Assembly: GCA_009929415.1 (NCBI GenBank)
Contig: SAAM01000005.1
Coordinates: 1 to 33,689 of the forward strand
Direction of reading: 5' to 3'
Source: Clostridia bacterium
Lineage (GTDB): Bacteria > Bacillota > Clostridia > Peptostreptococcales > Filifactoraceae
DNA: 33,689 nt
The notes beneath the pieces are model-generated. The model was not told where the DNA came from. It was given only the letters and a program-made list of their open reading frames with translations, and did not search any database. Both the position numbers and the translations under genes were made by a program. Of the stretch, positions 29,080-32,330 are shown piece by piece; positions within the stretch are counted from its first letter, which is position 1, and each line of letters starts with the position of its first letter.

Positions 29080-29088
29080 ATGCAACAA

Positions 29089-30351
29089 ATGAAAATTGGA
29101 CAGTTTGCAAAGCTTAATAATACAAGCATAGATACCATAAGGCACTATATGTCTCTGGGTCTCCTTCTGCCTGAAAAAGCAGGAAATCAGTATGAATTTG
29201 ACGAAAAATGCACGAGTGACTATATCGAGATCCAGAGATTGAAGCAAATCGGGTTCACGTTATCGGAGATTCAGCACCTCATGCTTTACAAAAAAATGGG
29301 AAAGATGACAGGATACCGGCAGAGGATTTCTTATCTGTCATACTTTGAAAACAAGCAAAGACAGGTGGCAGAAGAGCTTGAAAGACTCGAATCAATGAAG
29401 CTGCAGCTGGCTTCGTATATTGAGGAAATGAAGGGGATGACTGAATCTGATGAAGAGATTCACAGCTTGCCGGGCGTAAGGATGAGCACGCTGGATATGC
29501 TGTGCTGCAACAAATGCAAAGGGAATTATAACATAGAGAGTGGAAACATCATCAAGGGGGAGCTCTATGAAGCTGTTCTCAGGTGCGGATGTGGAAGCGA
29601 GCTTTTCATAGAAGACGGAATCATATTTGGAGAGGGCAGTATTTATGACAGTGAAAGAGCCTGCAGAGAAGAAATGAGTGGTTCATACAGCGAATTGTAT
29701 ATAGATGAATATATTAATACCACAGATATCAATTATCTTCATAAGCTCCAGTCCGGGCTTGAGTGGTCATTAAGGCATATACCTTTTGAAAAAGCATCCG
29801 ATGCAACGGCGCTTGAGCTGGGGAGCGGGCATGGATATTTCATGAGGCACGTGCTTGATTTATTTCCTGATTCATCTACTTATATTGCAGTAGATCATGA
29901 CAGGGTAAAGATGAAATGGCTCAGGAGAGTGATAGAGAAAAACAATCTAAAATGCAATGTTGTCTTCATATGCACGGATTTTGAAAATATACCCCTCAGA
30001 GATAATACCGTGGATATGCTTCTTGATATAGCGGGATCGAGCAACTATGCTTTTGAGAACAGGGAGTTCCTTCTGAGAAGAGTCGATCACCTCATGAAAA
30101 AAGGTGGATATCTTCATGGATCATACATACTTTTCAAGAATTTCAAGTCAAATTCGAAGATACCGCGTGAACTCAGGGTTAATTTCATGTTGGATCACGT
30201 CAAGAAGGAAATCGAAAATCTGAATTATTCATGCACGGACGAACACGTTTCATCTACGGTTGTCAAAGGGGGACCGATGGAGGACTATTTTGTAGAGGGA
30301 GAAGAGGTATATACTTATCAGTATACCGGAGTTAAAATTGAGAAACTATAG
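29089..30351 (+). CDS. MerR regulator fused to zinc ribbon and SAM methyltransferase
   Basis: A three-part, 420-residue protein. Residues 1-70 are a MerR HTH (MKIGQFAKLNNTSIDTIRHY, QIGFTLSEIQHLML) with a coiled-coil linker to about 118. Residues 136-180 form a zinc-ribbon of Trm112-like look (CCNKC at 139-143, RCGCG at 165-169, then IEDGIIF). Residues 195-375 are a class I methyltransferase: ALELGSGHGY (241-250) binds SAM, AVDHD (267-271) is motif II. The target of methylation is unknown: a small molecule, a protein or RNA. I choose 29089, where MKIGQFAK is the canonical MerR start; an ATG at 29080 is too close to GGGAGG. Confidence 0.83.
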   Translation: MKIGQFAKLNNTSIDTIRHYMSLGLLLPEKAGNQYEFDEKCTSDYIEIQRLKQIGFTLSEIQHLMLYKKMGKMTGYRQRISYLSYFENKQRQVAEELERLESMKLQLASYIEEMKGMTESDEEIHSLPGVRMSTLDMLCCNKCKGNYNIESGNIIKGELYEAVLRCGCGSELFIEDGIIFGEGSIYDSERACREEMSGSYSELYIDEYINTTDINYLHKLQSGLEWSLRHIPFEKASDATALELGSGHGYFMRHVLDLFPDSSTYIAVDHDRVKMKWLRRVIEKNNLKCNVVFICTDFENIPLRDNTVDMLLDIAGSSNYAFENREFLLRRVDHLMKKGGYLHGSYILFKNFKSNSKIPRELRVNFMLDHVKKEIENLNYSCTDEHVSSTVVKGGPMEDYFVEGEEVYTYQYTGVKIEKL

Positions 30352-30378
30352 GGCAGACCCCATGGTTTCGATTTTTTT
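30343..30378 (+). terminator. Rho-independent terminator of the MerR operon
   Basis: AAAC...GGG (30343-30353) pairs with CCC...GTTT (30358-30368) with one mismatch, loop CAGA, then seven T (30372-30378). The 5' arm overlaps the stop region of the MerR-methyltransferase gene. Confidence 0.75.
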
Positions 30379-30469
30379 GTGTAAAAATTTCTTATTTTCT
30401 GTGAAAAAACGGTATTGCCGTGGTCCTGACTCAACGTATTAAAGTATAACTATAGAGGAGGATAATATC

Positions 30470-31735
30470 ATGGAAAATAGAAATATATATCTTTTTGCTT
30501 CAGGCAAAGCCGTTTCAATTCTGGGTTCGAGCATATTTTCGTTTGCCATAGGGCTCTATGTGCTGAAACTTACGGGCTCCGCACTTAATTATGCCATGAC
30601 TCTCATGCTGAGCGTGATACCTATGGTAGTAATAAGCCCGATTGCAGGTGTAATAGCTGACCGGGTTTCAAAAAAATGGCTGGTTTCAGGAATGGATTTC
30701 ATAAACAGCATACTGTTTGCAGCCTTGTTCATCCTTAGTATATACAGGGAGCTGACACTTCCGGTAATATATATTGCTATAGTGCTCCTGAATGTATTCA
30801 CTACATTTTTCGGAATTGGGATAGAGACAGCCAAGCCTGCGCTTGTAAGCTCAGAGAAGCTTATAAGAATAAACTCACTGAGCAAGCTGATAGATTCGTC
30901 TGCGACTGTGCTTGGACCCGTAATAGGAGGGGTAGTATATGCTTTTGTAGACATAAGAGCCCTTATCTTATTCAGCAGCATTGCATTCATGATTTCAGCA
31001 GTTTCTGAGTGGTTCATAGACTATGAATTCAATCTGGAGAGAAGGCTTTATGAAAACCACGAAAAATCAGAAGAAAATAAAAGCATCCTGAGTGATATAA
31101 TAGAGGGATGGAAATTCTTTTCAGGAAACAGATCGCTGCTTCAACTGTTTTTCCTGTTTTTCATGCTCAATATGCTTATTGGGTTTTCTGTGAATGTTCC
31201 TCTGCCATATATAATAAATGAAGTACTGAGATTTTCTTCTAGCAGATTCGGGATGATAAATTCAATGTTCCCCATCGGGCTCATTATTGGTACTCTAACG
31301 GTCGAATATGTAATGAAGCGCATCGAGTTTAGAAAGCTGCTTATTCTGATGAACATACTGATTTCGATTATGGCATCAGTAATAGGCCTTCCTGTCATCC
31401 TTGGACTTGACTCTGGAATGAGCCTGGCTTTCTACTGCATTGTAAATATCATCATAGGGATAGCCATAGCCTATGTGGATGTTCCTGTTATGACGATACT
31501 GCAGAATGAGGTGCCAAGAGAGCTTCTGGGAAGGGTGCTGAGCCTGATTATGAGCCTTGTAAAGGCGATGCTTCCTGTGGCACTATTGTGCTCTGGAGCA
31601 CTCACCTCCAGAATGCCGGTGCAGCTGATTCCCGCAGCTGGAGCAGTAATACCATTCATATACAGTATATTTATGCTGAAGAAAAACTCTACGGAGCGTT
31701 TATTGAATAAAGAGACAGATTGCATTAGTATTTAA
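30470..31735 (+). CDS. MFS efflux transporter
   Basis: A 421-residue major-facilitator protein with twelve hydrophobic segments. Loop 2-3 has the motif-A sequence GVIADRVSKKW; a hydrophilic region of about 35 residues joins the two halves. It resembles the DHA3/MefA-like exporters that expel macrolides or siderophores, but the substrate is not readable. GAGGAGG precedes the ATG. A TATAAC box near 30446 gives it its own promoter. The next gene, an XRE/desulfoferrodoxin fusion, follows by 16 bases and may control it. Confidence 0.85.
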   Translation: MENRNIYLFASGKAVSILGSSIFSFAIGLYVLKLTGSALNYAMTLMLSVIPMVVISPIAGVIADRVSKKWLVSGMDFINSILFAALFILSIYRELTLPVIYIAIVLLNVFTTFFGIGIETAKPALVSSEKLIRINSLSKLIDSSATVLGPVIGGVVYAFVDIRALILFSSIAFMISAVSEWFIDYEFNLERRLYENHEKSEENKSILSDIIEGWKFFSGNRSLLQLFFLFFMLNMLIGFSVNVPLPYIINEVLRFSSSRFGMINSMFPIGLIIGTLTVEYVMKRIEFRKLLILMNILISIMASVIGLPVILGLDSGMSLAFYCIVNIIIGIAIAYVDVPVMTILQNEVPRELLGRVLSLIMSLVKAMLPVALLCSGALTSRMPVQLIPAAGAVIPFIYSIFMLKKNSTERLLNKETDCISI

Positions 31736-31751: not shown

Positions 31752-32330
31752 ATGAACAATGAAAATACGGGAAAGCTCATACTAAGGCTGCGAAAGGAAA
31801 GCAACATGACTCAGAAACAGCTGGCTGATGCGATGAATATAAGCGACAAGACGATATCAAAATGGGAAAGAGGGCTTGGACTCCCGGATGTATCGCTTCT
31901 GCGTGAGCTTTCGGAAATACTGGGAATAAATGTCGAAAGGCTTTTATCCGGAGAACTTAAAGCAGAAGACAGAGATGGAGGAAATATGAAAAAAGTAAAA
32001 TTTTATGTATGCCAGGAGTGCGGCAATGTGATAACCGCGACTGGCGGTGGAGAAATATCCTGCTGTGGGCGTAAGCTGGCCGCGCTTACAGCAAAACCTG
32101 CAGATGAAAGCCACAGGCTGAATGTTCAGGAGATTGAGAACGACTACTATATAACCTTCAGCCATGATATGAGCAAGGATCATCATGTTGGCTTCGTAGC
32201 ATATGTCACATGGGACAGGGTGCTACTGATAAAGCTCTACCCTGAACAAAATCCGGAGGTTAGATTCCCGAGAATGCAGAAGGGCAAGATTTATTTCTAC
32301 TGCAGCAATGATGGTCTTTGGGTCAACTGA
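31752..32330 (+). CDS. XRE regulator fused to desulfoferrodoxin-like domain
   Basis: A 192-residue fusion. Residues 7-65 are a Cro/CI HTH (LRKESNMTQKQLADAMNISD, KTISKWERG). Residues 80-110 resemble the desulforedoxin Fe(Cys)4 domain: FYVCQECGNVI (Cys87, Cys90) and SCCGRKL (Cys104, Cys105). Residues 115-192 resemble the superoxide-reductase domain: ESHRLNVQE (His121), FSHDMSKDHHVGF (His138, His144/145) and YFYCSNDGLW (Cys184). In active enzymes the last ligand is a His three residues after the Cys; here that position is Asp187. It may sense redox state or metal rather than reduce superoxide. Likely regulates the MFS operon. Confidence 0.82.
   Translation: MNNENTGKLILRLRKESNMTQKQLADAMNISDKTISKWERGLGLPDVSLLRELSEILGINVERLLSGELKAEDRDGGNMKKVKFYVCQECGNVITATGGGEISCCGRKLAALTAKPADESHRLNVQEIENDYYITFSHDMSKDHHVGFVAYVTWDRVLLIKLYPEQNPEVRFPRMQKGKIYFYCSNDGLWVN

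Follow-up and report, generated by a model that had tools for sequence, protein, structure and literature searches.

Proteins that place an N-terminal helix-turn-helix (HTH) before a desulforedoxin-superoxide reductase (Dx-SOR) module were named HTH-Dx-SOR in SORGOdb, whose passage on them counts 19 and classifies them by domains (PMC3116461, 2011). Neither that passage (PMC3116461) nor literature searches offered an operator, a target or an Asp variant of HTH-Dx-SOR, and a literature search, its reach ending at subscription papers, returned no functional study of the class. The regulator described here lies in a window of 33,689 bp (contig SAAM01000005.1) and belongs to this already known class: it has the N-terminal HTH, a Cys4 centre (CXXC...CC) and a SOR domain, in the same order as the SORGOdb proteins, but with Asp187 its iron site does not follow the Fe(His)4Cys pattern. 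TrtA of Treponema denticola was considered as a characterised relative and rejected: this XRE protein has 104 aa, and no known protein matched its C-terminal part (PMC12724145). When one genome per GTDB species was scanned, the regulator had 306 relatives, of which the best 80 come mostly from Clostridia and Paenibacillus-type Bacilli; the nearest, with 95% protein identity, is found in Proteocatella sphenisci, of the same genus. Across public species genomes the class comprises some 300 proteins or more.

SoxR, a 2Fe-2S regulator of the MerR type, senses redox state through a metal centre and governs a small set of detoxification genes. The likeness of the present protein to SoxR would be one of analogy only, in metal-centre redox sensing and in a small detoxification regulon, whereas the DNA-binding and metal domains of the two are unrelated, and the SoxR operator sits at an elongated spacer while the operator predicted here overlaps the -35 box. 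Desulfoferrodoxins or 2Fe-SORs (Desulfoarculus baarsii, 2JI1; D. desulfuricans, 1DFX) share with the window protein the Dx centre, the SOR barrel, and three of the four His ligands plus the Cys. In contrast to them, the window protein has an extra HTH, Asp for the fourth His ligand and Ser for the Lys of the EKH motif, and its Dx-SOR part is about nine residues shorter.

Domain architecture and fold

The N-terminal part of the regulator matches the Pfam family HTH_3 (residues 11-62, 5.5e-15), and the remainder matches Desulfoferrod_N (residues 81-107, 7e-4, slightly below the curated cut-off) and the NCBIfam desulfoferrodoxin model TIGR00320 (residues 81-190, 1.2e-12). The latter match reaches 48.1 bits against a curated equivalog cut-off of 146.9, and by sequence the Dx-SOR part is a homologue of TIGR00320 desulfoferrodoxin, not an equivalog. 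In a phmmer search of PDB sequences the 2Fe-SOR of D. baarsii aligned at 4.8e-9, with His121, His138, His144, Cys184 and Asp187 facing the SOR ligand positions. An AlphaFold2 model of the regulator is confident (pLDDT 91.3), and its best Foldseek matches are solved 2Fe-SOR structures, the top ones being D. baarsii 2Fe-SOR (E 7e-10, TM 0.7 on target), D. desulfuricans Dfx and T. pallidum SOR. On profile, alignment and model evidence, whose agreement is far beyond chance, the regulator is an XRE helix-turn-helix joined to a desulforedoxin centre and a SOR barrel (Table 1).

These results bear out most of a sequence-only reading of the same DNA. The XRE-SOR fusion that it had recognised is upheld by Pfam, NCBIfam, the PDB sequence search and AlphaFold2/Foldseek alike, including the comparison with desulfoferrodoxin that it had proposed, and the pattern of Cys 87, 90, 104 and 105 is correctly numbered and forms a complete centre. 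Its list of SOR ligands stands for His121, His138 and Cys184, while the phmmer alignment settles its choice of His144 or His145 on His144 and discards His145. Asp187 does lie at SOR's fourth-histidine position in the alignments, so that of the four equatorial His and axial Cys of a SOR enzyme, three His and Cys184 align and the fourth His is Asp.

Table 1. Coordinates of the regulator, its predicted control region and the neighbouring genes in the window
Feature	Position	Strand	Basis
HTH-Dx-SOR regulator gene, 192 aa, ATG 31752, stop 32330	31752..32330	+	ORF, profile, sequence and fold matches
XRE (HTH_3) DNA-binding domain, residues 7-62	31770..31937	+	Pfam match
Recognition segment S31-G41 (SDKTISKWERG) within XRE domain		+	S36, W38, E39 near-invariant (127 homologues)
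Desulforedoxin domain (centre I), residues 81-107, Cys87/90/104/105	31992..32072	+	Profiles; homologue alignment
SOR domain, residues 108-190, centre II ligand positions H121, H138, H144, C184	32073..32321	+	Profile, PDB, Foldseek, homologues
Asp187 codon GAT, at SOR's fourth equatorial His position	32310..32312	+	Alignments; tree
MFS exporter; residues from about 406 encoded by operator/promoter DNA	30470..31735	+	Profile matches; homology end
MerR - Trm112-like - methyltransferase protein, conserved MFS neighbour	29080..30351	+	Profile matches; neighbourhoods
Predicted operator ACTCTACGGAGCGTTTATTG, 8-3-8 imperfect dyad, within MFS ORF 3' end	31686..31705	+	Exact pattern match
Predicted -35 box TTGAAT, overlapping operator	31703..31708	+	Upstream alignment
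Predicted -10 box TAGTAT, 17-bp spacer	31726..31731	+	17-bp spacer in 87/95 homologues

Iron-site ligands and position 187

Ligand conservation was counted over 127 distinct homologues. The four Dx Cys and His138 are present in every one (127/127), whereas 114 retain His121, 122 His144 and 123 Cys184, and we infer from these sequences that the Dx centre is indispensable and centre II tunable. At position 187 there are 106 His, 17 Asp, 2 Glu, 1 Lys and 1 Arg; the question raised earlier, whether Asp is conserved, thus has a divided answer, as Asp recurs but His prevails. In a tree of 109 proteins, built with column 187 left out, His and an acidic residue were exchanged about ten times (at least 10 by parsimony), and strongly supported branches require the Asp label to change 6 times. 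Asp187 is therefore a recurrent minority variant. Since replacement at 187 is almost wholly to carboxylates, a ligand swap or retuning is favoured over random decay, and the probable effect of Asp187 is to tune centre II or to disable it in part. It is not what makes the protein a regulator, because most HTH-Dx-SOR proteins retain His there.

The Lys of the EKH motif, beside the first His, is present in the full-length plain Dx-SORs compared and in 16 of the 127 homologues. SORs lacking this Lys exist in archaea, and its loss was therefore rejected as proof of enzyme loss.

In four homologues centre II is nearly gone, with three or four ligands lost and Dx intact. At these loci (L109, L110, L167 and L211) Cys184 is replaced by Ser, His144 by Asn or Asp, and His121 is also replaced, while all four Dx Cys are kept.

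A predicted operator shared by the family

Upstream of almost all homologues the DNA contains a conserved block, AACTCTACGGAGCGTTTATTGAA, which was reduced to the search pattern ACTCTACKNNNCGTNKATTG and corresponds to a 20-bp dyad with the consensus ACTCTACkNNNCGTNkATTG. At no more than two mismatches, ACTCTACKNNNCGTNKATTG occurs in 95 of 104 distinct homologue upstream regions, against 0.04 expected by shuffling, and in 91 of these 95 it ends 42-53 bp 5' of the start codon. Its arms, ACTCTACG and CGTTTATT, form an imperfect inverted repeat, and at five positions 83-94 of the 95 sites retain the pairing. The -35 box begins with the TTG that closes the operator, and a -10 box follows at 17 bp in 87/95. 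The site in front of the window's regulator is exact, and is the sole match in the window (at up to three mismatches) and in the assembly (at up to two). As judged from sequence, a dyad operator thus overlaps the regulator's own promoter, and the best reading is that the regulator is autoregulated through this predicted operator. Rfam gave no match to an RNA element at the regulator locus, and a literature text search returned no paper on the motif.

The motif also follows the regulator across genomes. In a DNA-only scan of 391 genomes of the taxonomic class, with HTH-Dx-SOR called at E <= 1e-17, the exact operator was found in 19, of which 18 encode HTH-Dx-SOR, compared with 78 of the 391 overall (Fisher p = 7e-13); a reversed-pattern control had 0 matches in the same genomes. 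Across 394 genomes of the order there were 50 operator sites against 1 for the control. The distinct exact sites number 65: an intact HTH-Dx-SOR gene follows 33 of them and a decayed or truncated one follows 4, while 20 precede other genes, namely CAT (4), GIY-YIG-like (13), DUF2087 (1) and FMN reductase (2); a further 2 precede other XRE genes and 6 are unexplained. At 4 of the 13 GIY-YIG-like sites an HTH-Dx-SOR gene lies further along the same stretch, and several genomes with the operator before other genes encode the regulator elsewhere, so that it would act in trans. The GIY-YIG assignment (0.0075) is below the Pfam cut-off. The CatA-like protein tested falls below the CatA resistance cut-off, and drug resistance is thus not claimed. 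In many genomes CAT genes also lie directly 3' of the regulator, often overlapping its end.

Some sites stand apart. The operators at L137, L163 and L251 precede truncated or decayed HTH-Dx-SOR genes and are remnants of lost regulators; at L251 a gene resembling a transposase comes next. At L243 and L245 the same operator lies upstream of an XRE gene with a membrane-like C-terminus in place of the SOR domain, possibly a shared operator or crosstalk. Two near-perfect palindromic versions, ACTCTACTACRCGTAGATTG (L187, L189), precede a gene that is possibly nuclease-like; no protein of that genome is convincing as an HTH-Dx-SOR.

Proposed function and alternatives

We consider it fairly probable that the regulator, a member of the HTH-Dx-SOR class, controls its own gene and acts as the iron-based redox sensor for a detoxification regulon. 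The sensor role proposed from the sequence alone fits, because the family carries its own conserved operator; the part of that proposal naming the MFS exporter as target is not supported (see below). In the mechanism that we envisage, an XRE-type regulator, probably a dimer, would receive its signal through a two-site desulfoferrodoxin-type iron domain and would bind the 19-20-bp dyad over its own -35 box, most likely as a repressor. The same operator in many species would govern redox or xenobiotic genes, encoding the CatA-like acetyltransferase, the GIY-YIG-like protein, DUF2087 and FMN reductase. The signal might be superoxide, NO, a redox-cycling compound or iron supply; once it had oxidised the iron sites or acted there by ligand binding, the DNA would be released and the genes expressed. 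Repression is favoured because the dyad covers the -35 box. Activation is possible as well, since the dyad centre lies about 43 bp upstream of the expected transcription start, and lambda cI activates PRM from such a position. The CatA-like targets point to a drug or metabolite as the signal no less than to superoxide, and the two XRE genes that bear the motif while lacking a SOR domain are a counter-point to the sensor reading.

More tentatively, and with the balance somewhat against it, the SOR iron centre may have been recruited into Bacillota XRE regulators as a genuine sensor with one operator and a small detoxification regulon, in which the repeated change of His to Asp or Glu would give a 3His-1carboxylate-1Cys site of altered reactivity. 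If true, superoxide-reducing iron sites would join the gene-regulatory redox sensors as a new kind. The predicted operator supplies an exact DNA probe, a promoter and a shortlist of targets, which makes the function, the signal and the significance of the Asp/His switch directly testable.

Other explanations deserve consideration. The iron centres could be structural or Zn-bound, with a small molecule such as a drug or metabolite sensed via the SOR barrel, which we regard as unlikely although several observations would suit it: a CatA-like acetyltransferase is among the targets, isochorismatase or nitroreductase genes adjoin some homologues (isochorismatase genes lie directly 3' of the regulator in Paenibacillus-type genomes), and centre II is degraded in four proteins that retain Dx. 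However, if the sites had no metal function, it would be difficult to account for the conservation of their ligands over most of the class. It is less probable still that the protein is a bifunctional enzyme, whose centre II is a working superoxide reductase and whose HTH adds only autoregulation. Most of the class does retain four His and the Cys, and the window's own genome (a MAG, 89% complete) gave no match to a separate SOR, but the EKH Lys is rare in the class and is Ser here, Asp stands for the fourth His in the window protein, four homologues have lost most of centre II, and in many genomes a plain Dx-SOR is present alongside the fusion.

The neighbouring exporter and the system in Proteocatella

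Control of the adjacent MFS exporter, which the sequence-only reading had advanced together with binding near 30430-30470, is very improbable: the two genes are on the same strand, 16 bp apart, and read-through transcription from MFS into the regulator is likely, but the MFS promoter bears no operator in the window at up to three mismatches, the sole site being downstream of that promoter, the adjacency of MFS and HTH-Dx-SOR is confined to Proteocatella, and the closest MFS relatives in five other genomes adjoin a relative of the MerR-Trm112-methyltransferase protein instead. The exporter was therefore rejected as a target, and is probably not one; nor does the sequence lend support to binding near 30430-30470. 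The homology of the MFS protein extends to about residues 402-414. The operator-encoded tail follows from there and overlies the regulator's operator and promoter, as if the two genes had been joined later. The MerR-methyltransferase/MFS cassette thus seems to have come to abut the regulator, so that the MFS ORF continues through the regulator's promoter. The MerR-methyltransferase and MFS pair (29080-31735) recurs in the order, in at least five further genomes, and may be a cassette for resistance or export that brings its own regulator.

In Proteocatella the output would consist of autoregulation plus targets not yet seen, as only the regulator's own site is visible there. The window's own genome gave no match to CAT or, in a weak test, to the GIY-YIG-like protein (MAG, 89% complete), and with its single site the window protein has no visible target but itself. 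In the P. sphenisci orthologue (L001, 302-892) the start codon is ATA, the Shine-Dalgarno sequence is weakened to GGGCGG and the operator is one base off, changes which suggest that the system may be decaying in Proteocatella. A dN/dS of 0.13 between the window and P. sphenisci regulator genes indicates that the protein is under selection now or was until recently.
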